Below, in pieces: positions 9,343-23,354 of a DNA stretch of 23,354 nucleotides. Position 1 is the first letter of the stretch, and every line of letters begins with the position of its first letter. The stretch covers positions 1 to 23,354 of the IMG/VR virus record IMGVR_UViG_3300037175_000036; one strand, 5' to 3'. Below the pieces are notes generated by a model. It had not been told where the DNA came from. It saw only the letters and a list, made by a program, of their open reading frames with translations, and made no database searches. The translations under genes were made by a program, and so were the position numbers. Origin of the DNA: a virus.

Positions 9343-9404
9343 TAAAACTCTGCGATCTTCTGATTAATAAAGTCCAAGTCTGCAATGGCTTTTTCTAGGT
9401 TCAT
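9342..9404 (-). CDS. 20-residue micro-gene coupling to the terminase
   Basis: This frame encodes MNLEKAIADLDFINQKIAEF. It starts by an ATGA overlap with the upstream gene's stop and ends with a TAATG overlap with the terminase start, so it fills the gap exactly. The peptide is an amphipathic helix. It may be a translated leader that carries ribosomes to the terminase start, which has no ribosome binding site of its own, or a tiny functional peptide. Both junctions are seen directly; function is inference. Confidence 0.5.
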   Translation of the reverse strand: MNLEKAIADLDFINQKIAEF

Positions 9405-9676
9405 AGTTCACTTTCTGGTCGTTGGTTTAGATAATCACAATTTGATTTATCCATTTCCGCCTCAGTTTTACATGCTATTCGTATATCATCTAACAAATAG
9501 ACAGCATCTTCAACAACTTTATATAAATACTCGCTTGATTCTCCTGCGATTATTATATATGGTTCTTCATTTTCCGTAGTACGACTATAATGACCGGACG
9601 ATAAAAGTCCTTGGACTAATATAATCATCATTTGTTGAATCTGTTCTTCCGTTAATGGTGTGTGTTTTGGTTTCAT
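9401..9676 (-). CDS. Small acidic protein between terminase genes
   Basis: A 91-residue protein lying between terminase small and large subunits. The frame opens earlier, but the ATG at 9676 (MKPKHTPLTEEQIQQMMIIL) overlaps the previous stop as ATGA and is the better start. Two helices are likely, TEEQIQQMMIILVQGLLSS and EYLYKVVEDAVYLLDDIRIA, separated by a strand-like EEPYIIIAGES. It is acidic and AT-richer than its neighbours. I do not recognise the family. Confidence 0.6.
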   Translation of the reverse strand: MKPKHTPLTEEQIQQMMIILVQGLLSSGHYSRTTENEEPYIIIAGESSEYLYKVVEDAVYLLDDIRIACKTEAEMDKSNCDYLNQRPESEL

Positions 9677-12225: not shown

Positions 12226-12994
12226 AGTTGGCTAAAGTTTTCCATGCGAGCGATACCACATCTGGAACTTGTCCATTCCCAATGGCTGCAATGCGGTCCA
12301 TTCCATTGGCCACCCCATAAAATATTCGGCGGCCTTCGGCATAGGATTGAGCCCGTGCAGTAACACCCAAAGCGCCCAGCTTATCGAACCTTCTGTTCCA
12401 GTCTTTGCGATTTTTCTTATTCGCCCTTTGCTGTTGATTTTCGTTTGAGGTTCCAACGGCTCGATTATTTGAGTCTTTGTAATGGTGGGCATATATGAAA
12501 ATCCTTTTCCGCTGGTGATCCAAGCCGGTATCGGTCGCGCAAAACATTCCCCATTCTGCATCATACCCCATTCGGGCCAGGTCTCGCAGAACGGTTCCAA
12601 GCCCCCTGCTAGTAAGCATTGGTGAGTTTTCCACAAGAACGTATCTTGGTCCAACTTCGCAAATGATTCTCCCCATTTCACTCCACAACCCTGATCGCTC
12701 CCCTGTAATTCCGACACCTCCTCCACCTGAGTTTGCGGCGATGCTAATATCCTGGCATGGAAATCCTCCGCATATGACATCAACTTTTCCTCTCCAAGGT
12801 TTTCCATCGAACTCTTTGACATCCGCAAAAATGGGAAACCATGGAAGCAAACCGTCTTTCTGCCGAGCGTGTAAGACTTGCTGGCAATAGGGGTCAATCT
12901 CAACGGCGCAGATTGGTTGGTGTCCAAGCAGGATGTCGCCAAGTATCCCTCCTCCCGCTCCAGCGAAGAGATGCAAGGTTCTAAGTTTTTGCAT
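12188..12994 (-). CDS. DNA (cytosine-5) methyltransferase
   Basis: A 268-residue C5-cytosine DNA methyltransferase, transferring methyl from S-adenosylmethionine to cytosine, probably to shield phage DNA from host restriction. Motifs run in family order: I LHLFAGAGGG (8-16), II/III VEIDPYC (31-37), IV GGFPCQDIS with catalytic Cys80, VI VENSPML (121-127), VIII HQRKRIFI (160-167) and X IGNGQVP (238-244). Between VIII and X only about 60 residues remain, so the target-recognition domain is very short and the whole enzyme is shorter than usual (about 320-450). AAGGATATTT before ATG 12994 is a good ribosome binding site, 9 bases after the endonuclease gene's stop. Its entire length up to motif X is also open in a second same-strand frame. 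Confidence 0.87.
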   Translation of the reverse strand: MQKLRTLHLFAGAGGGILGDILLGHQPICAVEIDPYCQQVLHARQKDGLLPWFPIFADVKEFDGKPWRGKVDVICGGFPCQDISIAANSGGGGVGITGERSGLWSEMGRIICEVGPRYVLVENSPMLTSRGLGTVLRDLARMGYDAEWGMFCATDTGLDHQRKRIFIYAHHYKDSNNRAVGTSNENQQQRANKKNRKDWNRRFDKLGALGVTARAQSYAEGRRIFYGVANGMDRIAAIGNGQVPDVVSLAWKTLANYEHSHHRRRDHP

Positions 12995-13104
12995 AAATAT
13001 CCTTCATTTAATAACGATATGTATTTTTGCAGTTCCTCCATTGTGCAGTTCAATGGTTCTGGATTCGGTGATGTATTTTTGGAGCATGGCGAGGATTGTT
13101 TCAT
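12232..13104 (-). CDS. Overlapping second frame inside the methyltransferase gene (candidate overprinted protein)
   Basis: A 290-codon frame on the same strand as the methyltransferase but in another phase, overlapping it for 763 bases. It reads like a protein: EEKLMSYAEDFHARIL (105-120), KWGESFAKLDQDTFLWKTHQ (143-162), GLEPFCETWPEWGMMQNGE (168-186), EYFMGWPMEWTALQPLGMDK (260-279). From memory, phages and bacteria carry stand-alone methyltransferase-associated proteins with these same phrases (SETWPRWGMMRNGE, EWLMGWPxGWT), which argues for a real product. Against it, no start has a good ribosome binding site, whereas the methyltransferase does. The natural start may be ATG 12822 or 12807 rather than 13104, since the first ~90 codons overlap the endonuclease end and look less protein-like. 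It stops 6 bases before the next gene, a better junction than the methyltransferase gives. It may be real, or a translated-looking shadow of a real gene. Confidence 0.35.
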   Translation of the reverse strand: MKQSSPCSKNTSPNPEPLNCTMEELQKYISLLNEGYLCKNLEPCISSLEREEGYLATSCLDTNQSAPLRLTPIASKSYTLGRKTVCFHGFPFLRMSKSSMENLGEEKLMSYAEDFHARILASPQTQVEEVSELQGSDQGCGVKWGESFAKLDQDTFLWKTHQCLLAGGLEPFCETWPEWGMMQNGECFARPIPAWITSGKGFSYMPTITKTQIIEPLEPQTKINSKGRIRKIAKTGTEGSISWALWVLLHGLNPMPKAAEYFMGWPMEWTALQPLGMDKFQMWYRSHGKL

Positions 13105-13255
13105 CGTCGTTAATTAGTCCAAGCACGGAATTACATCTGGTGCATACAAATCCGCGCACTTTTTTTGTCGAGTGGCAATGGTCGCAGTTTCTCCTAAATC
13201 TTCCAGTGGAGAATGGTGTCCCGCAAGCCATACATTTTCCATTTGCCTTTTCCAT
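13004..13255 (-). CDS. Endonuclease VII-like HNH/Holliday-junction nuclease
   Basis: An 83-residue small nuclease of the recombination endonuclease VII (T4 gp49) family. Zinc pairs are Cys8/Cys11 (CMAC) and Cys38/Cys41 (CTRC). The catalytic Asp25-His26 lies in NCDHCHSTKKVRGFVC and Asn42 follows the second pair (RCNSVLG), all in the spacing of the family. It lacks the C-terminal dimerisation domain of T4 gp49, as many small phage versions do. The ATG at 13255 has no ribosome binding site. In-frame codons continue upstream without stop to about 13358, crossing the direct repeat and reading sensibly (SLRQYDKYNRNTAAIFLMEK), but contain no start. The true 5' end may have been altered by the repeat. 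It may cut branched DNA before packaging, or act as a homing nuclease that mobilised this locus. Confidence 0.75.
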   Translation of the reverse strand: MEKANGKCMACGTPFSTGRFRRNCDHCHSTKKVRGFVCTRCNSVLGLINDDETILAMLQKYITESRTIELHNGGTAKIHIVIK

Positions 13256-13271
13256 GAGAAAGATCGCTGCG

Positions 13272-13376
13272 GTGTTTCGATTGTATTTGTCATATTGCCT
13301 TAAACTCTCAGGTCTGCCGGTTGGCTGTTCAACTGCGATGAAGAACGGAGGCTTGGTGTCGCTTCACCAATCGGCA
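13272..13376. repeat. 105-bp direct repeat, copy A
   Basis: Matches 14186-14291 base for base except for one T missing in the run at 13300. It covers the start codon and first seven codons of the gene starting at 14207 plus about 85 bases upstream. Here these codons run into an unrelated sequence just ahead of the endonuclease gene. Its upstream edge falls exactly where the methyltransferase fragment loses similarity to its family. Confidence 0.9.
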
Positions 13377-13449
13377 CTGTTCTCCATCCAAGGAGTTTTC
13401 CTCCAAGAATGCCGCCACCATTGCCCGCGAATAAAGCCAACTCATTCAT
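13300..13449 (-). pseudogene. Truncated N-terminus of a second cytosine methyltransferase
   Basis: A 49-codon frame beginning by ATGA overlap with the preceding gene's stop. Residues 1-25 (MNELALFAGNGGGILGGKLL, then GWRTV) are a clear N-terminus of a phage C5-cytosine methyltransferase, including motif I. From residue 26 the sequence is PIGEATPSLRSSSQLNSQPA, which comes from direct repeat copy A, and it then stops. The rest of that enzyme is gone. The fragment is not the start of the complete methyltransferase at 12994, which has its own, different N-terminus (MQKLRTLHLFAGAGGGILGD). This is best explained as a remnant left by recombination. Confidence 0.7.
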
Positions 13450-14207
13450 GCCGCCTTGCTGGTGTAGGCGTCGAGGTTTGAAAGAATCCCTTCAGCCGGT
13501 TTGCCGTACTTCATCTGGCGCACCGTGGCACGCTGAAGCACAGAGACGTATTTCAAACGGTCTTTCAACTCGGCTGGAATTCGCGCCTCCATGAGTTGGA
13601 TTGTCGTTTCAAACAGTCCCGGCGTCATGGGCTTTTCGGTCTCTGCTGGCGCTGGCGGAGTCACTGACGCTTCGTAATGGTCCGGGATGTCTGGCTGGCC
13701 TTCGTAGTTGTCCGATGGCGCGGGAAGTTCCTTTTTCACAGGCTCGACATCAACGATTGGCTTTGCCTTGTGATCGAGTTCGGCGGCGGCTTCTTTGATG
13801 GCTTTGGCCGTCAGTTTTCCTCCGTTATTTTTGGCTGCTTTAGCCGCCACTTTTGCGCGTTTTTCAGGATCCGTTTTTGCCAGCTCATTTAGTGCGTTTT
13901 CGGAAGCACCTTCAATTACTTCAATGTTTATAGGGTCGGAGTCGTGTGACACGTTTGTCACATTTTTTAATTCCTTGGCCGTTTCCGCTGCCGCCATGTA
14001 CCGGTATGCTTGGCGTATACTCACCCCGCGAGACTCGGTATATTCCTCAAACGTTGCGAATTTAGCGCGGTAGAGTTTTGCATCACGCACTTTCATTAAA
14101 GCATCCCCAACCTCCATGAATGTCTTCGCACCGGCGACGATTATCGCATCAAGCTTCGTGAACTGGTTGGTTTCTTTCGTGGTGAGTGTTTCGATTGTAT
14201 TTGTCAT
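13446..14207 (-). CDS. ParB/DUF3102-like DNA-binding protein
   Basis: A 253-residue protein with the pattern of a widespread phage and plasmid group. An N-terminal helix pair (FTKLDAIIVAGAKTFMEVGD) is followed by ALMKVRDAKLYRAKFATFEE, then a helix-turn-helix YTESRGVSIRQAYRYMAAAE at about 58-77. The middle is helical and alanine/lysine-rich (RAKVAAKAAKNNGGKLTAKA), followed by a proline-rich linker and a C-terminal helical segment (KYVSVLQRATVRQMKYGKPA). Proteins like this are thought to bind DNA, by analogy with ParB, but no role is proven. The ATG at 14207 has AAAGG four bases upstream, and a promoter lies at 14353-14326. The start region is duplicated 0.9 kb downstream. Its stop overlaps the methyltransferase remnant as ATGA. 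Confidence 0.65.
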   Translation of the reverse strand: MTNTIETLTTKETNQFTKLDAIIVAGAKTFMEVGDALMKVRDAKLYRAKFATFEEYTESRGVSIRQAYRYMAAAETAKELKNVTNVSHDSDPINIEVIEGASENALNELAKTDPEKRAKVAAKAAKNNGGKLTAKAIKEAAAELDHKAKPIVDVEPVKKELPAPSDNYEGQPDIPDHYEASVTPPAPAETEKPMTPGLFETTIQLMEARIPAELKDRLKYVSVLQRATVRQMKYGKPAEGILSNLDAYTSKAA

Positions 14208-14291
14208 ATTGCCTTTAAACTCTCAGGTCTGCCGGTTGGCTGTTCAACTGCGATGAAGAACGGAGGCTTGGTGTCGCTTCACCAATCGGCA
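14186..14291. repeat. 106-bp direct repeat, copy B
   Basis: Second copy of the sequence at 13272-13376, identical except for one extra T. It contains the start codon, ribosome binding site and first codons of the ParB-like gene plus its upstream leader, and begins just downstream of the promoter at 14353-14326. The two copies flank about 810 bases, so recombination between them would delete the ParB-like gene and the methyltransferase fragment. Confidence 0.9.
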
Positions 14292-14316
14292 GAACAGAGA
14301 ACTCATTTTTCTTCAT
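14215..14316 (-). CDS. Possible 33-codon leader peptide
   Basis: An ATG at 14316 opens MKKNEFSVLPIGEATPSLRS and continues for 33 codons to a stop 8 bases before the ParB-like start codon. It lies at the predicted 5' end of the transcript from the promoter at 14353-14326. Residues 10-33 come from direct repeat copy B and are the same as the tail of the methyltransferase fragment at 13300-13449. No family or function is recognised, and it may not be translated. Confidence 0.25.
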   Translation of the reverse strand: MKKNEFSVLPIGEATPSLRSSSQLNSQPADLRV

Positions 14317-14325
14317 CGCGTGCTT

Positions 14326-14353
14326 AATCTACCAGCTTTTACACATCTGTCAA
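14326..14353 (-). promoter_or_regulatory. Sigma70-like promoter of the ParB-like gene
   Basis: On the minus strand a perfect -35 TTGACA (14353-14348) is followed after 16 bases by TAGATT (14331-14326), four of six -10 bases. Transcription would start near 14319, about 110 bases before the ParB-like start codon. The leader would consist mostly of direct repeat copy B. Confidence 0.5.
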
Positions 14354-14377
14354 ACCATGCTCATTTTGTCCCACTGG

Positions 14378-14479
14378 TTAATGTTTCTCCCGGTCACACC
14401 AAATCATGCCAACAAGTATACAGCATACAATAAAGGCGATTATCACGAGGTTGTGTGTTAATGGAGTCATAGGGATCAT
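14378..14479 (-). CDS. 33-residue single-pass membrane peptide
   Basis: The ATG at 14479 overlaps the stop of the helicase-methyltransferase gene as ATGA. The peptide begins MIPMTPLTHN, has one hydrophobic segment of about 19 residues (LVIIAFIVCCILVGMIW), and ends with charged CDREKH. That is the shape of a small inner-membrane protein with a short cytoplasmic tail. I do not recognise the family. Phage membrane micro-proteins often act on host envelope functions or lysis, but nothing here shows which. Confidence 0.5.
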   Translation of the reverse strand: MIPMTPLTHNLVIIAFIVCCILVGMIWCDREKH

Positions 14480-17205
14480 TCTTCGTTAAATTCGCTTAAG
14501 TCGCTGGATACTTTTGAGATGATTGATGACTTAATTTTGTTTTTCTCAACTTTCGTTAATTTAACCGGTGGCAATATCGGATCTGGCGCAATCGCTGGGG
14601 CCATGTCGAATAACGTCGGCATGTTCCGCTCACGTTCAGCCTGCTCGCAGTACCCGACGCCGCAGCGCCAATATTCGGTTGCCAGTTCCACTCCCCATCC
14701 GATGCGGCCGAGTAGCTGCGCGCAATACGGCACTGTAAATATTCCAGCGAACGGATCAAACACTATTTCACCTGGGTTTGAATACCTGGTAATGAGACGA
14801 TTGACAATATCGAGCTGCAGCGGGCACACATGCTTGTCCTCTTTTTGCTTTTCCTGATTCGAATTCAACGTCCGCATCCTGGTGATGTCGTCCCAGATAC
14901 CTGGGTGATTTGAGATTGGAGAGAATAACATCCAACTTGATGGCAAATATCCATTATCCTCAAGCGCGGCGGCGATCTCAACGTGTTCCTTCCATGAATA
15001 TTGATGGTTGTGGCAATAATCAAGCCATAGCCGACGTACGGCGCTCATGTTCATTCCTTGGATTATGTCCGGGTCCGGCAGCCGGTTTCCGTCTGATTTC
15101 CAGAATCCCGAAGCATCTACTTGCCAGTGTGCGCGCTTGTAAATGCTCTTGTCCTTAGTCACCGGCAGGTCTGCATAAGCATTGGAAAGGTCGCTGTGCG
15201 GCTTCCGGAATAGTAGGACGTATTCGGGCATACCGACCCCCATCTTAGTCGAATCTTTCGCGTTCTCTGACCAGCCGAGCCGGTATGTTTGCGCGTTCTC
15301 ACGCACAACGTCCGTGTCAATCGTGATCCGTCCAAGAAAGAAAAATCCGTGTTTTTCAAAACAGTCGGCTGTTTTGTCGCTGAATCTGTCCACGGTCGGC
15401 ACTCCCGTCCCATGCTGGGCGCCGAAGCGGATGCGGTCCTTGACGTGGATGCAAGCAAGTCTGCCTGGCTTTAAAACGCGCAGTAGATTCGGTATCAAAT
15501 AATCCAATTGACTAAAGAATGCCTGATTGTCGATATTGTTCCCCAAGTCGGAGTGGTTCGGACTATATTCATATTGTGTGCCGAACGGAATTGAACTCAC
15601 AATCAAATCGACGCAGCTATCTTCCCAGTTTCCGCTTTCTCCAGGTATTGGATTGCCTTGTTCATCAAATTGTGATTGTTGTGCCAGATGATTTGAGCCT
15701 TTGTCATGCCAGGAATTGTGCGTGATGTTGTGCCCAAAGTCAACAGTCTTCATTAGTTCAACAATAGCATCATTATTGATCGCCCGGAAGGTTTTGCTTT
15801 TTACTTCGATGCGCTTGCATCCGGTCTTTCTCACGATTTGCATAGTTTTTAAGTCAAGTTTGTATTCTTTAAGGAGCGCCGACATTTTGGAAACCAGTTC
15901 GTTGTGCTGTTGCCACTTAGTTTTGAGTGATGATACAACCGCATCTTCAGACTCTGTGAATATGATGTAAATATCCACTATGAACTTCTGTTGGAAACGC
16001 AGAATCCGGTGGACGGCCTGAATGAAATCATTAAACTTGTAACTACTCCCTAAAAATATTGCGCGGTGACAATGCTTTTGGAGATTACACCCGGAGCCTG
16101 AGAGTTGCGGCTTCGTTCCAAGGACAGGGAATCCGTTGTCTGAAAAGTCTACGATGATGTCTTCGCGCTTCTCTAAATCTTGAGTCCCATAAATTACCTG
16201 CACTCCCGGAATAACTTTTTGAATCACCCGGCGCTCGGCTTCTATGTCGTGCCATAAAATGAAATTGTCTCCTGGGTTGGCTTCGATTATTTCCTTAGCT
16301 TTGGCGATTCGGCTAATGATGGTTGACCTCTTTACCTCAGCTAAGTCTGCCAATCCTGCCGACTTGTCCAAAAATAATTGATGTTGCCCCCAGCTATCCA
16401 CCATCGTCCATGCCTTTTTATGATCTACAGGTACCCTCTCCCAATGAACGCGCAACCCTGGCATGTCGTATCCGTCATCGGAATATCCCAAGTCTGACGG
16501 CTTTTGCAGAAAGCAGGACCATGAAGCCAGCCAGTCCCAAAACTCACCTTCCATGCTCGGCATCAAAGTCAGGTTTCCAGCCTTCTGGCTGTCCCGTTGG
16601 AAGAATCGCGTCAGCGCCTGGCCGGTATCCATCACTCCAAGAAAACCTCCGTAGTGGATTAGTTCCTTGTGCCGGTTCGGTGACGGCGTTGCCGTGAACA
16701 CAAAACGATAATCAATCGCCGTGAACATTTTCAGGAAACTTTGATAGGTCTTACTTCCGAAGCTGCGTAAAACGCTGGCCTCGTCAAGCCCGATGCCGGT
16801 GAACTTTTCTTTCGTGACGTTTATTCCGCCGTCGCGCACGCGCTCATAATTCGTGATGATGATCTGCGTTGTGCAAGCTTCCACCTCGGCATCGGTTCGG
16901 CAATAAGTCATGGCAACACCCATCGCCGGCCCCTGGATTCGTGTAAATTCTTGGCGTACACCAAGCGGGGCAATGATAAGGTACTTCCGAGGATCATGTT
17001 CACATATCCATTTTGCAACCTGAAGGTGAATTCGTGTCTTTCCAAGACCGAAAGCGGCAAAGCAGGCCCGGCGCCCACCGCGAGCCATCCACATGGCAAT
17101 GTCGATCTGGTGCGATTTAAGGCACGGATGCGGCGGGGTAGCTGGCACGAACCCGTTAAGCTGAGCAAGTGGTTTTTTGGACTGGATAAATTCGTCGTAG
17201 GTCAT
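14476..17205 (-). CDS. Helicase-DNA methyltransferase fusion
   Basis: A 909-residue two-domain protein. The frame opens at 17229, but the ATG at 17205 has GGGAGGGA just upstream and an ATGA overlap with the previous stop, so it is the start. Residues ~1-430 are an SF2/SNF2-type helicase: P-loop FGLGKTR (52-58), DEA motif (141-143), TATP (171-174), a C-terminal lobe with SGSGCNL, and motif VI QAVHRILR (396-403). Residues ~530-870 are a beta-class amino-methyltransferase (N6-adenine or N4-cytosine): motif IV SSIPFG (537-542) comes before motif I FDPFAG (816-821) and GWGVEL (836-841), the circularly permuted order. Motif IV is SIPF instead of the usual [DNS]PP[YF]. The fusion could move along DNA while methylating it, or have lost one activity. 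Confidence 0.8.
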   Translation of the reverse strand: MTYDEFIQSKKPLAQLNGFVPATPPHPCLKSHQIDIAMWMARGGRRACFAAFGLGKTRIHLQVAKWICEHDPRKYLIIAPLGVRQEFTRIQGPAMGVAMTYCRTDAEVEACTTQIIITNYERVRDGGINVTKEKFTGIGLDEASVLRSFGSKTYQSFLKMFTAIDYRFVFTATPSPNRHKELIHYGGFLGVMDTGQALTRFFQRDSQKAGNLTLMPSMEGEFWDWLASWSCFLQKPSDLGYSDDGYDMPGLRVHWERVPVDHKKAWTMVDSWGQHQLFLDKSAGLADLAEVKRSTIISRIAKAKEIIEANPGDNFILWHDIEAERRVIQKVIPGVQVIYGTQDLEKREDIIVDFSDNGFPVLGTKPQLSGSGCNLQKHCHRAIFLGSSYKFNDFIQAVHRILRFQQKFIVDIYIIFTESEDAVVSSLKTKWQQHNELVSKMSALLKEYKLDLKTMQIVRKTGCKRIEVKSKTFRAINNDAIVELMKTVDFGHNITHNSWHDKGSNHLAQQSQFDEQGNPIPGESGNWEDSCVDLIVSSIPFGTQYEYSPNHSDLGNNIDNQAFFSQLDYLIPNLLRVLKPGRLACIHVKDRIRFGAQHGTGVPTVDRFSDKTADCFEKHGFFFLGRITIDTDVVRENAQTYRLGWSENAKDSTKMGVGMPEYVLLFRKPHSDLSNAYADLPVTKDKSIYKRAHWQVDASGFWKSDGNRLPDPDIIQGMNMSAVRRLWLDYCHNHQYSWKEHVEIAAALEDNGYLPSSWMLFSPISNHPGIWDDITRMRTLNSNQEKQKEDKHVCPLQLDIVNRLITRYSNPGEIVFDPFAGIFTVPYCAQLLGRIGWGVELATEYWRCGVGYCEQAERERNMPTLFDMAPAIAPDPILPPVKLTKVEKNKIKSSIISKVSSDLSEFNEE

Positions 17206-17549
17206 AATTCCCTCCCGCATTCGATGCATTTAATTTTTACCGGCGTTGTGCGGGTGGCGTATTCTGTGATTGGGGTGCATTTGTGCACTTCCTTCGGCAG
17301 TTCCTTAGTCCAGGTTGGTGCGGTGGACTTAATCGCGTTAATACCCTCTGCAATGGTTTTGTAAGGAGCAACCAGTTCAAGTAGCATGGCGTCTCCCCGC
17401 TCATGGCACTCGATTGTGGCTTGCAGATGATCGGTGGCCTCGGCAATGGCACTATGTATCGCCACCGTAATTTGCATTCTGTCAGTGTTTATATATCTGT
17501 CCGCCCACTTCTCCGCGATCTCCTCAATTTTTTCGGTTGTTTTGCTCAT
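17202..17549 (-). CDS. Small protein with C-terminal CxxC, paralogue of its neighbour
   Basis: A 115-residue protein. The N-terminal ~45 residues (TEKIEEIAEKWADRYINTDR, then a helix with AIHSAIAEATDHL) resemble those of the 99-residue gene directly upstream (EIKKIADKWAAHSRGV, ESIKGAISES), so the two are probably paralogues. The middle is helical. The end, KIKCIECGREL, has one CxxC pair plus an earlier Cys, possibly half a zinc site. Its stop overlaps the helicase-methyltransferase start. Function unknown. Confidence 0.6.
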   Translation of the reverse strand: MSKTTEKIEEIAEKWADRYINTDRMQITVAIHSAIAEATDHLQATIECHERGDAMLLELVAPYKTIAEGINAIKSTAPTWTKELPKEVHKCTPITEYATRTTPVKIKCIECGREL

Positions 17550-18480: not shown

Positions 18481-18509
18481 TGTGGGATATAGGTGATTTT
18501 AGTTTTCAT
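18429..18509 (-). CDS. 26-codon micro-gene coupled to the SNF2 helicase gene
   Basis: This frame encodes MKTKITYIPQWYGKYMCWKG plus six more residues, starting by ATGA overlap with the helicase stop. The aromatic-rich beginning looks like a real small-protein N-terminus, but the frame ends early. It is probably the 5' part of a gene whose continuation is in the overlapping -1 frame (18480-18310). Alternatively it is a genuine short peptide. Confidence 0.4.
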   Translation of the reverse strand: MKTKITYIPQWYGKYMCWKGRMNVQP

Positions 18510-21500
18510 TCATTGATTCCGCATTGTTTGAGAGTTTCCGGGTTTAGCTGGCGCTGATATTTGATACACAGTTTTTTCCCAAGCGCAGCGCATTTAGGCG
18601 TCAAGCTTTCCATCGCAGCTAACGATTGTCCAATCCTCGCGTCAAATTTATTGAATCCTTGAGAGTCGATCATCTTGGCACCGTCGCAATTCATCGCCAA
18701 TGACCGTAGAGCAGCGTGAATAGACTGACGCATCTCCCGCGTCATTGTCACCGCGTCCCGCTCTAATTCCGTGCGCGTGGCCAGCTTCTCTGTCTTGGGC
18801 AATAACGTGACTTCCGCTTCTATCTCGGCGCGTTCGCTGTCCAACGATTTCTCCAATATTTCTTCCTTGCGAATCCAAGTCTGGATCATGTGCGCGTCAA
18901 TCGTTCCCGGCAGGATGTAGTATTTTACCGTTACGTTGTCCTTTTGGCCGATCCGATGACAGTTGTGCGCCGTTGCAAATCCTGTGGTAAAAGATTCATC
19001 GCCTTCGACCGTGATGTCATATACCCGCACTTTGTCACAATAGGTTTCTACGGAACGGACTGGCCGGTAAATAAAATCATCGTCCTGATCGTTCAGCCGC
19101 GTGCTGGCAGGATTTCCAAATTTGGTATAACCACCAATCCAGTGATATCCGCTTGTTTCGCTACCTCGCCGCATAGTTGGTATGAAACCAGCGCGAATAG
19201 CCAGCAAGCACGCTTGGTAGCAAAGTGTCTGGCTACAGCTTACCCATTCCACTTGCCGGTTGCGTTGATACCCATCCCCGTCCGTGTATCCGCGCAGAAA
19301 AATAGCGGCTTGGTCAGGCGGGAGATTCATAATCTCCGATGGAAGAGAGAAGTTTTCTGAACCAATCCCAAACCAGCCTTGGAACCATTTAGCAAGCTCT
19401 CCAGAATAGGCGCGCATCTCAATTCCTTTGCCCCCTTCCTTCCTATAGATGGTGGATTTGATACCCAATGCAAGCAGCTTTTTAGATATTCGGATTAACA
19501 CGTTTTCCTCTTTTTCGTGACCACTGAACGATACAAAATATCCCTTACCCGGCTTCATTGAGCTGAAGCCTTCAGCAGCATACCACCCGAACAAGTAAAG
19601 CCAGTCATCATCAATTTTTATTTCATCCGGAAGCCTGACGTAGTGCGGGCTGGTCTGACGCGGTTTCGGTGGACGATTTCCAGACTCTATCAATGCCCGA
19701 TAATGTACTCGACACAGCCCACGACCCTCTACAGGATTCCCACAGTGGCACTTTTGTTTTGAACGCGGAACCAATTGCGAATCATACATTCTCCATTCTT
19801 TTTTGAACGTGACACTTTCAAGCCTGCACCATGCTTTTATTTTTGGGAATGCCATTGAATCAGTTGGCAATATGCTGTGCGCCTCAATCCATTCCGTTTT
19901 GTCGCCGCGCTTTACCATAAGCCTATGATCGTGAGTGCATTCAATTGAATCGTTCCATCCGACGTAATGAATTTTTGTCATGCATCCCCGATGCTCGTGA
20001 CTCCATGCGTCTGTGACCTTTCGGTAATTACCGGAGTGCGTCAAAACTACGTCGCCAATCTTGATGTTCTGGATAGTGGTTAATGCCATGCTGCCATGAT
20101 AAACAGAGTTAAGACACCAAACAAGAGTATTTTTGACAAAACATCGATCCGAGCACTGAGCCATTTTGCTGGCCGTCCAATCGTTTTCAAAAAATATGAC
20201 GTTAGAACTTGCCGTTAAAGTTATGCCTTCGCCTGTCGCGCGAATTGATCCGAAGAATAATCTGCAACTTGGATCGTTCTGAAACTGTTGAACAAATTTA
20301 TCACGGTCGAGTTGTGGCGTGTCCCCCGTCACCAAAACACTTTCATTTGGAAAGGAAGCATGAGCCATTCTCAGACAATCCGTGTGATGCGCGAATACCA
20401 CAATCTTGGATACTTCTTCCAGTTCCTCTTTTAGCATCTCAATCATTGCTGGTGTCTTTGCAAGCGCCGTGGCGTGGCGCACCTTAGCGATCTCCGTAAA
20501 TATCAACGCTGTCTTGTTGCGCAGCGCCGACACAGCGTTTTTAAATGCGTCTTGATCTTCGCTTGCCTTTGCAAGTTCAAGTGTCACCTCGGCATCCTCA
20601 AGCTCAGGTTGATTCTGTTTCCAAGCGCGTTGCTCCTGGTTAATGACGTGCTCAAGTCCTTCCGTTTCCATCTCAACAACAATCCGTTGTTTTGGTGGTA
20701 GCTCACTAAGCACGTCACATTTCAATCGGCGGATAAGACATGTCCCGCGCAACACCCTTCCCAATTCTTCGGAATTTGTTGCACCATCGGCTTGCCATCC
20801 ATAGCCGTTTGAGCATGCGCCACAGTACCTTTTCTCGAAAGCTGATTTGCTGCTAAATAATGTCGGAGCGATGTAGCTAACGATTGGCCAAAGCTCGGCC
20901 GGTTTATTCTCAAATGGTGTCCCGCTCAAGAACAACTTCCTAACCGCCGGAATTCCGCTGCTCGGCAACATTCCTTTCGCTGATTCTTTGCGAGTTGGTT
21001 TGTACCCGACAATCGCTTTTGTCTGGCGTGCTTTCGCTGATTTTGCGCGATGACATTCATCGACGATAAGCAAGTCCCAATAATTTGTAGATGCTATCGG
21101 AAATTTATGCACCACGTTATAATGGATAATTACGATGTCAGTCTTCGGAAAGAAATTAGCATTCGCGTGACCGATGCTCATTTTCCGAATCAGCCATTTT
21201 CGTAATTCACGTTCCCAATTGGCTTTCAAAGTCATTGGGCAAATCAGTAACACCCTGCTAATTTCTGGTATCGAATTTATTACCCCGATGGCCTGAATAG
21301 ACTTTCCGGTTCCCATTTCATCACCAAGTAAAACACCGTTATTCTTGAATGCCCGCAAGATATAATTCACTCCTGCTTTTTGAAACGGACGAAACTCGCA
21401 ACCATCAGGACAAGGTATTTCGATGTCGGCATCAAGTGATCGGCTCAGTTCAATTCGTTCATTGCGTTCCTGGATAATCTCTGGCGCAAGCTTCTGCCAC

Positions 21501-21709
21501 CAGCACAGCCGCCAGTCGTCGGTGTACGGGTCTTTGGACATAGACAAGCCGAGTGGTTTCAAATCGTTCTTGCGCTCACCCCAGACTTCCCAAATTGGAT
21601 CATCATTCTCACGCGGCTTGTACGTGCGAAGAATGCGCGGCCCGTTCCGGGTGTTTACCTCTTTAGGTTTTGTCCAACGAACGAGAGATTCTATTTCGGT
21701 AGTAGTCAT
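18506..21709 (-). CDS. SNF2-family DNA helicase/translocase with intein
   Basis: A 1067-residue precursor, about 673 residues after intein removal. The SF2/SNF2 ATPase has P-loop GDEMGTGKS (129-137), DECH box (217-220), motif III SGTPFEN (262-268), C-terminal lobe motif V TGEGITLTAS (492-501), and motif VI split by the intein: QCSDR (518-522) before it and CHRIGQ (917-922) after it. Without splicing, the arginine finger would be separated from the rest of its motif and the enzyme should be inactive. The N-terminal ~100 residues hold a basic/tryptophan-rich region (WGERKNDLKP, WRLCWWQK). The C-terminal ~140 residues are helical. Phage SNF2 helicases may act in replication or recombination. It begins by ATGA overlap with the winged-helix gene. 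Confidence 0.9.
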   Translation of the reverse strand: MTTTEIESLVRWTKPKEVNTRNGPRILRTYKPRENDDPIWEVWGERKNDLKPLGLSMSKDPYTDDWRLCWWQKLAPEIIQERNERIELSRSLDADIEIPCPDGCEFRPFQKAGVNYILRAFKNNGVLLGDEMGTGKSIQAIGVINSIPEISRVLLICPMTLKANWERELRKWLIRKMSIGHANANFFPKTDIVIIHYNVVHKFPIASTNYWDLLIVDECHRAKSAKARQTKAIVGYKPTRKESAKGMLPSSGIPAVRKLFLSGTPFENKPAELWPIVSYIAPTLFSSKSAFEKRYCGACSNGYGWQADGATNSEELGRVLRGTCLIRRLKCDVLSELPPKQRIVVEMETEGLEHVINQEQRAWKQNQPELEDAEVTLELAKASEDQDAFKNAVSALRNKTALIFTEIAKVRHATALAKTPAMIEMLKEELEEVSKIVVFAHHTDCLRMAHASFPNESVLVTGDTPQLDRDKFVQQFQNDPSCRLFFGSIRATGEGITLTASSNVIFFENDWTASKMAQCSDRCFVKNTLVWCLNSVYHGSMALTTIQNIKIGDVVLTHSGNYRKVTDAWSHEHRGCMTKIHYVGWNDSIECTHDHRLMVKRGDKTEWIEAHSILPTDSMAFPKIKAWCRLESVTFKKEWRMYDSQLVPRSKQKCHCGNPVEGRGLCRVHYRALIESGNRPPKPRQTSPHYVRLPDEIKIDDDWLYLFGWYAAEGFSSMKPGKGYFVSFSGHEKEENVLIRISKKLLALGIKSTIYRKEGGKGIEMRAYSGELAKWFQGWFGIGSENFSLPSEIMNLPPDQAAIFLRGYTDGDGYQRNRQVEWVSCSQTLCYQACLLAIRAGFIPTMRRGSETSGYHWIGGYTKFGNPASTRLNDQDDDFIYRPVRSVETYCDKVRVYDITVEGDESFTTGFATAHNCHRIGQKDNVTVKYYILPGTIDAHMIQTWIRKEEILEKSLDSERAEIEAEVTLLPKTEKLATRTELERDAVTMTREMRQSIHAALRSLAMNCDGAKMIDSQGFNKFDARIGQSLAAMESLTPKCAALGKKLCIKYQRQLNPETLKQCGINE
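18962..20143 (-). other. Intein with LAGLIDADG homing endonuclease (394 residues)
   Basis: Residues 523-916 of the SNF2 precursor. All splicing residues are present: Cys523 (block A, CFVKNTLVWC), block B THDH (592-595), block F VRVYDITVEGDESF, and block G TAHN with His915-Asn916, followed by Cys917 as the +1 nucleophile. The homing domain has two DOD motifs, LFGWYAAEG (706-714) with Glu713 and RGYTDGDG (806-813) with Asp810, so it looks active. Between blocks B and C lies an extra Cys/His cluster, CHCGNPVEGRGLCRVH (C654, C656, C666, H669), resembling a small zinc finger found in phage HNH proteins. The intein sits in the most conserved motif of the helicase, a usual target site. Confidence 0.92.
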
Positions 21710-22279: not shown

Positions 22280-23354
22280 GATTCCAAGGCCGGTTGATAT
22301 TCCGCTTCCGTCTTCCCGAAAGTCCAAGCAACCCCCTCTTTTGCTCGCGTAATATTCGGAGGCACACGGAGAAAATAATCCTTAAATTCCCCGGTGGTTT
22401 CCGGCGTCGAATTAACAACTTTTACCATGACAATGGGCTCGTCATCTTTTACGTCCTTGCGGTACAACACTCCGAAATCATCCTCATGAACTTTCTGTGC
22501 ATGAGCATCCAATAAATATCGATCGAGACCATATCTTTCGATCATGACACGCCGCACTTCGGCATTTGATTCAGCTTCGATACGTTCGACCGTGATATGA
22601 TTCGGATATTCAATGACATAGGCTGGTACACGAACCCCGTGAACCGCATATAATGATGATCCATCACGCCACTTACAAAACGGGCCATTGTCGCAATGCG
22701 GTCTGTTTTGATCGTCAACTAAAAGCACCTCCGGCCTATCGGACACTATGCAGAAATCAGGAGACATAATCCTCGGGCCTCCGTGAATACATGCCTTTTC
22801 ATAGTGAATATAATTCTCGTATTCATTCAATCCCAACTTGCAAACGTCTTTAAAGAACGATAGGTAAGCATTCCATCCTGACCACTGATTTCCACCGTCC
22901 CACATATTCCAATTCGAAATAGATTCCGCACATGCAATTCCAAATTGATATTCATTTCCTAAGAACTCTTTAGAAATCTCTATAAACGATTGTTTCGGAA
23001 GCGATACAAACCATTTTAAGTCGTCGCGGGTGGCGTCGAGGGTGGCGTCGAGGGTGGCGGCGTGGGTGGCGTCGCGGGTGGCGTCGTGGGTGGCGGCGCT
23101 GGTGGCGTCGATGGTGGCGTCGTGGGTGGCGGCGAGGGTGGCGTCGCTGGTGGCGGCGCGGGTGGCGTCGCTGGTGGCGTCGCGGGTGGCGTCGCTGGTG
23201 GCGTCGCGGGTGGCGGCGCTGGTGGCGTCGCTGGTGGCGTCGCGGGTGGCGGCGCGGGTGGCGTCGCGGGTGGCGGCGCGGGTGGCGGCGAGGGTGGCGG
23301 CGAGGGTGGCGTCGATGGTGGCGGCGCGGGTGGCGGTGCGGGTGGCGTCGCTGG
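22276..23354 (-). CDS. DUF6745-type protein with tetrapeptide repeats (5' part beyond window)
   Basis: The frame is open through the right edge of the window, so only the C-terminal ~358 residues are visible and no start lies in view. Residues from the edge to about 23029 are 27 repeats of four residues, [R/S/L/H/I][D/A/T]AT. A linker DDLKWFVSLPKQSF follows. The C-terminal domain has the phrases of DUF6745: WSGWNAYLSFFKDV, HGGPRIMSPDFCIVSDRPEV, NRPHCDNGPFCKWRDGSSLY, AVHGVRVPAYVI, AEVRRVMIERYGLDRYL, VKVVNSTPETTGE and YFLRVPPNITRAKEGVAWTF. DUF6745 has no known function that I can cite. An ATG at 22905 exists but would cut the conserved domain, so it is not the start. Confidence 0.8.
   Translation of the reverse strand, partial: SDATRTATRAATIDATLAATLAATRAATRDATRAATRDATSDATSAATRDATSDATRDATSDATRAATSDATLAATHDATIDATSAATHDATRDATHAATLDATLDATRDDLKWFVSLPKQSFIEISKEFLGNEYQFGIACAESISNWNMWDGGNQWSGWNAYLSFFKDVCKLGLNEYENYIHYEKACIHGGPRIMSPDFCIVSDRPEVLLVDDQNRPHCDNGPFCKWRDGSSLYAVHGVRVPAYVIEYPNHITVERIEAESNAEVRRVMIERYGLDRYLLDAHAQKVHEDDFGVLYRKDVKDDEPIVMVKVVNSTPETTGEFKDYFLRVPPNITRAKEGVAWTFGKTEAEYQPALES
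23029..23352 (-). repeat. Tandem array of 27 x 12-bp repeats inside the DUF6745 gene
   Basis: There are 27 perfect-length 12-bp units GGTGGCGNCGNN (plus strand), without spacers, continuing beyond the window. On the coding strand each unit is NNC-G[A/C]C-GCC-ACC, giving x-[D/A]-A-T; one unit has ACC and gives T. Only the first codon (Arg, Ser, Leu, His or Ile, always ending in C) and the second codon change. Codons 3 and 4 never vary. Local GC is far above the rest of the window. Confidence 0.95.

Follow-up and report, generated by a model that had tools for sequence, protein, structure and literature searches.

A candidate dual-frame family of phage C5 methyltransferases and a probable deletion scar with templated filler

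Introduction

Among the known two-polypeptide methyltransferases (MTases), the small subunit of M.EcoHK31I is encoded within the large one, in another frame. M.EcoHK31I and M.AquI are both two-polypeptide C5 MTases, and the small subunit of M.EcoHK31I carries motif IX only (PMC3404938). Overlapping frames in phage methylases have already been reported in other forms (PMC4351075, PMC11855218). In the cluster O mycobacteriophages, the MTase lies in two overlapping frames (Corndog genes 6/7, Firecracker gp5/gp6), with motif X in the second frame and a partial overlap; Firecracker gp5 is a relative of Corndog gp6, the C-terminus of which is related to the last helices of M.HaeIII, and the authors remarked that they had no explanation for why Corndog gp6 overlaps the methylase gene before it (PMC4351075). 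In ShiLan, the second reading frame inside the phage methylase is an inserted out-of-frame HNH homing element (PMC11855218). The DHHRN nuclease motif has also been defined, and homing enzymes with an Endonuclease-VII motif, such as F-CphI, are known (PMC6083498).

Here we compare with these systems a 23,354-nt stretch of viral DNA (IMG/VR record IMGVR_UViG_3300037175_000036; the whole stretch is hereafter called the window). As in the M.EcoHK31I type, one polypeptide of the window MTase carries motifs I-VIII and X; a putative second polypeptide is encoded in the +1 frame of the same DNA and ends in a motif-IX-like stretch. Unlike M.EcoHK31I and M.AquI, the overlapping ORF of the window covers nearly the whole MTase gene. 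The window type shares two overlapping frames with the cluster O MTases, but here the first frame contains motif X, and the second ORF lies nested across almost the entire gene. This ORF differs from the ShiLan element in being neither a nuclease nor an insertion. We found no report of this fully nested form of a dual-frame phage MTase in the literature searched. A nuclease gene next to this MTase shares the CxxC-DHxH-R-CxxCN motif with the DHHRN homing endonucleases and T4 endonuclease VII, but lacks the N-terminal region seen in F-CphI, L007 and L008. We regard the dual-frame MTase family as the more valuable result of this analysis; the recombination scar found beside it is of moderate interest and fairly ordinary. 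The features of the locus are collected in Table 1.

Table 1. Coordinates of features at the methyltransferase locus (window positions)
Feature	Position	Strand	Remarks
C5 cytosine MTase 2, 268 aa	12188..12994	-	PF00145, phrog_363; intact in its frame
Overlapping ORF, 290 aa, +1 frame of MTase 2	12232..13104	-	Starts inside nuclease gene; phrog_1008 family
Endonuclease VII-motif nuclease, 83 aa	13004..13255	-	D/H/H/R/N residues present; N-terminal region apparently missing
59-aa ORF from copied ATG	13114..13293	-	In frame with MTase 2 +1-frame ORF; ends 10 nt before its ATG
Repeat copy B, 105 nt	13272..13376	-	Probable filler separating two apparently truncated genes; one A fewer than copy A
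49-aa fusion ORF	13300..13449	-	MTase head joined in frame to copied upstream ORF
38-aa stump of MTase 1 +1-frame overlapping ORF (MSWLYSRAMVAAFLEENSLDGEQ...)	13329..13445	-	Intact relatives exist
C5 MTase 1 stump, first 25 codons (MNELALFAGNGGGILGGKLLGWRTV)	13377..13449	-	Keeps double start ATGAATGAG
'ParB-like' gene, 253 aa, start 14207	13446..14207	-	phrog_1733 (unknown function); stop overlaps MTase 1 start
Repeat copy A, 106 nt	14186..14291	-	33-aa ORF end, Shine-Dalgarno-like AAAGG, ATG, first 22 nt of 'ParB-like' gene
33-aa upstream ORF (MKKNEFSVLPIGEATPSLRSSSQLNSQPADLRV)	14215..14316	-	3' part within repeat copy A
Sigma-70-like promoter, TTGACA-16-TAGATT with TG	14326..14353	-	Predicted; outside repeat

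Results and discussion

A second open frame in phage C5 methyltransferase genes

An initial annotation of this DNA had placed a nuclease and a different, intact MTase immediately downstream of an interrupted one, and our searches bear out the intact MTase: MTase 2 matches PF00145 over profile positions 2-182, and motif X (GNGQVP) lies in the MTase frame. The 290-aa ORF in the +1 frame of the same gene matches phrog_1008 (E 7e-13), phrog_35493 and phrog_26627. Of 97 related MTases, 90 had a +1 frame that was open along 80% or more of the gene, and 0 of 97 had such a +2 frame, counts that are not independent events, as the sampled MTases are homologous. Across the 97 genes we observed 234 stops in the +1 frame against 676 expected from synonymous-codon shuffles made within each gene, and 1545 against 1390 in the +2 frame. 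None of 155 other similar-size genes of the same loci was open in +1. A second sample, for which the DNA of the initial 17 codons was the sole selection criterion and which had a few contigs in common with the first, was likewise open in +1 along 80% or more of the gene in 62 of 65 cases (150 stops versus 430 expected). The +1 protein was conserved at 34.0%, against 24.3% expected from the MTase residues (mean z 4.4; +2 frame, 2.7). In relatives, the two starts are often joined as ATGAATGAG, and the MTase stump that begins at 13449 retains both heads. Four relatives (L013, L135, L162 and L181) have a shortened MTase frame and a +1 ORF that is still long, that of L162 not being canonical. From these patterns of reading frames, the second, +1-frame gene is probably real.

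Relatives also showed a second architecture: in L135, L013 and L118 (Firecracker), the MTase frame stops after motif VIII and motif X ends the overlapping +1 ORF. In the window, the N-terminus of the +1 ORF (12932-13060) seems to repeat an EGYL-ending motif (LLNEGYL...REEGYL), unlike in relatives.

The frame-0 protein of one relative, L064, aligns to residues 15-170 only of M.HhaI, which cover motifs I-VIII, and the GNGQVP motif X follows further on; no motif IX was recognised in this frame-0 protein. The +1 product ends NPxWVEWLMGWPxGWT, which is motif-IX-like by eye. A profile of the +1 family matched Firecracker gp5 (99% probability, E 7e-18). The +1 ORF and the MTase frame most likely form an overlapping two-subunit MTase, and the function of the second product is inferred. 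Against this reading, profile searches with the +1 product matched neither E. coli Dcm nor another C5 MTase, and a structure model of the +1 product alone was poor (pLDDT 52, pTM 0.26). It is rather probable, in our judgement, that the MTases found here are members of a large phage family whose genes encode two C5 MTase subunits in two frames over nearly the whole gene, the second almost always unannotated, and that the scar described below removed one such double gene and left both of its heads. If so, the nested +1 gene found across nearly all of the ~160 sampled phage MTases would be a subunit of a common phage enzyme that annotation pipelines have missed, cloned single-frame MTase genes may read as inactive, and the family would offer an unusually long and deep case for the study of dual coding.

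A direct repeat in three assemblies

The 105/106-nt direct repeat on the minus strand that the initial annotation had reported at 14186-14291 (copy A) and 13272-13376 (copy B) is real. The copies are 99.06% identical across 106 columns (blastn). They match exactly over a 77-nt block and differ once within a 33-nt block, where copy A has TTTAAAGG and copy B has TTTAAGG, such that a single A is missing from B. The chance expectation for a repeated 77-mer is ~1e-38, effectively nil. Both copies, with the same one-base difference, are present in two further IMG/VR assemblies, L003 (about 99.7-99.9% identical to the window, with ~20 differences across 8.8 kb) and L004 (99.99% identical along 16.8 kb). 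Because the arrangement and the one-base difference recur in these two contigs, an assembly artefact, which the initial annotation had named as one of two findings that would count against its reading, is unlikely, and we rejected it with three assemblies in agreement. The same annotation had suggested that the locus might be unstable, as recombination between the copies would delete about 0.9 kb; we saw no such instability, as every assembly retains both copies and no collapsed, single-copy version was found in IMG/VR.

We found no transposase, target duplication or intron structure that would mark a mobile element, and no terminal inverted repeats among the pairs listed. Rfam gave no match over threshold in the repeat region; a structured RNA or riboswitch in the repeat was rejected on the lack of any Rfam match near threshold and a fold z-score of -0.47. 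Of the ~20 differences between the window and contig 3300037243_000093, ~10 are bunched within 180 bp (window 9389-9564), perhaps marking a recombined patch.

Copy A is natural in its place: the 253-aa gene continues from it without a frame change and ends at a stop that overlaps the start of MTase 1. The start of the 253-aa gene lies inside this copy, as had been claimed, with AAAGG and the ATG at 14207 both present. Copy A is the probable donor, and because it is natural in its place, copying would have run from A to B. The label 'ParB-like' was not supported, as the product had no Pfam match up to E 10 and matched only phrog_1733, a PHROG family of unknown function. The 33-aa upstream ORF had no PHROG match. 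A sigma-70 scan predicted a single promoter, at 14353-14326, and none inside the repeated segment, in a region where sigma-70-like sites were no commoner than in shuffled sequence. Duplication of a sigma-70 promoter was rejected, as this only sigma-70-like site lies outside the repeat. In contig 3300037243_000093, 35 bp at 14358-14392 are missing and one base of the predicted -35 box is altered.

Truncation of MTase 1 and probable truncation of the nuclease gene at the edges of copy B

The break of MTase 1 after its 25th codon, also part of the initial annotation, is borne out by both protein and DNA matches. The ORF from 13449 encodes MNELALFAGNGGGILGGKLLGWRTV and then enters copy B. The stump residues are 76-88% identical to those of intact phage MTases, and residue 25 is the last one aligned in several cases. 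At the DNA level, the stump has 76-88% identity to 10 phage records; 8 of these 10 matches extend no further than query base 75, corresponding to window position 13376, the first base of the repeat. In MW202462 (88%), 24 of the 25 head residues are shared and the head opens a complete 246-aa enzyme. Because the matches of relatives stop at this position and the MW202462 head opens a 246-aa enzyme, the sequence comparison gives good support to a loss of ~220 codons of MTase 1 exactly at the repeat edge. The stump and the intact MTase both fall in phrog_363, the stump weakly (E 0.28).

Stumps this short are uncommon, as none of 69 complete heads sampled from IMG/VR was as short as that of MTase 1. 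In phage ctn9Y15 (L122:2000-2335), 31 codons of a gene from the same MTase family form an independent stump that runs on into unrelated sequence, so such heads are left behind elsewhere too. The ctn9Y15 stump carries the annotation 'DNA methyltransferase'.

On the other side of copy B, the initial annotation had read an HNH nuclease. A nuclease is present, but its domain is PF02945, Endonuclease VII (E 8.8e-14), and the gene looks 5'-truncated. In a six-frame search, the homology begins at 13267, 5 bases from the repeat end at 13272, and at position 16 of the 82-position profile. Its two closest relatives have lengths of 143 and 146 aa, against 83 aa in the window. In them, the first Cys of the motif is preceded by 80 and 84 residues, against 7 in the window ORF, where this Cys is residue 8 of 83; the window protein is without the N-terminal ~75 residues of these two relatives. 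The DHHRN catalytic residues D, H, H, R and N and the four Cys are all present. Among proteins of solved structure, it is closest to T4 endonuclease VII and to Hpy99I, a restriction enzyme, although both matches are weak (E 0.025-0.027). T4 endonuclease VII has ~22 residues before its first Cys. Endonuclease VII proteins differ in N-terminal length, and some of the residues counted here as missing may never have been present. On the simplest reading, the nuclease gene was cut at its 5' end where it meets copy B; because of this variation, we treat that loss as supported but not demonstrated.

Origin of the scar

The locus holds two near-identical copies of one sequence and an MTase cut at the exact repeat edge, a state that is fixed in three assemblies. 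These copies, and the genes apparently cut at the edges, support the earlier claim of a recombination scar that duplicates the start of another gene. From the sequence of the junctions we consider it likely that copy B is the filler of a deletion, copied by template switching from 0.9 kb upstream; deletions with templated insertions likewise leave a short filler from a nearby locus between two truncated sequences. The ancestor would have carried a single operon of the leader, the 'ParB-like' gene, MTase 1, the nuclease and MTase 2. At a break or a stalled fork, the DNA between MTase 1 codon 25 and a point within the 5' part of the nuclease gene would have been lost. Repair synthesis would then have jumped 0.9 kb upstream, copied ~105 bases from the start of the 'ParB-like' gene, and returned by a second template switch to the nuclease gene. 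The same product could arise by another route, in two steps rather than one, if a tandem duplication came first and a deletion second. Because the MTases involved are of the dual-frame type, the event would have decapitated two overlapping genes at once. As judged against the codons of relatives, any microhomology at the edges would be at most ~2 nt. The 49-, 38- and 59-aa ORFs of the scar are most likely debris.

We infer the ancestor and the enzymology of this event, and also the deletion itself, because neither an ancestor nor a related phage with an intact MTase 1 upstream of the nuclease was found in IMG/VR or the phage collection. Searches of IMG/VR with the 'ParB-like' gene, the nuclease, the terminase, the leader 20-mer and the MTase head returned only two near-identical contigs or unrelated phages; relatives sought there by the terminase or the 'ParB-like' gene were near-identical contigs only. 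The phage collection gave no match to the 'ParB-like' gene or the terminase, and no relative of the 'ParB-like' gene was found in bacterial genomes. The initial annotation had proposed that one MTase was swapped for the other. With no ancestor found, this was not borne out, and the loss of one of two neighbouring MTases fits equally.

That annotation had also named the nuclease as a possible agent, a role for which there is precedent in the homing enzymes that share the Endonuclease-VII motif (PMC6083498), but here the nuclease gene itself seems cut by the same event. In its full form, this explanation has an intact Endonuclease-VII-motif homing enzyme beside MTase 2 cut MTase 1, after which faulty repair imported the nuclease-MTase 2 pair and left the repeat. 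It draws on the homing enzymes known with this motif (F-CphI, DHHRN family; PMC6083498), on the D, H, H, R and N residues kept in the window nuclease, and on the placement of both MTases in phrog_363. Another phage has an HNH-type nuclease, read as such by eye, directly upstream of a related MTase (L012:4376-4984), and because of this pair, nuclease-MTase neighbours can be said to recur. They do not do so generally, as no match to Endonuclease VII passed the family cut-off in any of 21 related MTase records. Moreover, the nuclease seems to have lost its head, its matches to Hpy99I and T4 endonuclease VII are weak, and no recipient or donor was found; we consider a nuclease-driven replacement unlikely.

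Copy B may instead have been kept for its ribosome-binding site and start codon, which would restart downstream translation after the loss of MTase 1. AAGG and the ATG are retained in copy B, and the MTase head reads in frame into the copied part of the upstream ORF, which ends just before the copied ATG, as it does in copy A. The 59-aa ORF stops 10 nt before the ATG of the +1-frame ORF and in the same frame, so that translation could possibly start at ATG 13293, run through 59 codons to a stop and re-initiate 10 nt on at ATG 13104. Against such a function, the RNA fold is unremarkable (z -0.47), the nuclease start at 13255 lies in a different frame from the copied ATG and is not preceded by a clear Shine-Dalgarno sequence, and there are no divergent relatives showing conservation. 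The position of the only predicted promoter outside the repeat further weakens the regulatory leader that the initial annotation had offered as its alternative, and we hold a functional copied leader to be quite improbable. The same final sequence would also be expected if recombination had linked MTase 1 of one phage with the leader of another, a sister phage from which the 'ParB-like' body and MTase 1 were already gone. Phages are mosaic, and the near identity of the copies would make the parents members of the same species. However, such a mosaic junction requires two independent rare events and an unseen intermediate, and the leader 20-mer occurs only in two near-identical contigs, with two copies in each; we give this origin very little weight. 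As a deletion closed with templated filler, which is the reading we prefer, the repeat would be a clear example of gene loss from a phage operon in which the gap was filled with a nearby gene start, and the short gene heads left by such scars mislead annotation.

Other features of the window

We observed three further features on surveying the rest of the window. A helicase-N4/N6 methyltransferase fusion at 14476-17229 (minus strand) is ~47% identical to helicase/methylases of Arthrobacter phages. At 18506-21709 (minus strand), an SNF2-type helicase is interrupted by an intein with a LAGLIDADG domain. An array of 12-bp units occupies the N-terminal part of a DUF6745 protein at 22962-23354, and the contig ends within this array.
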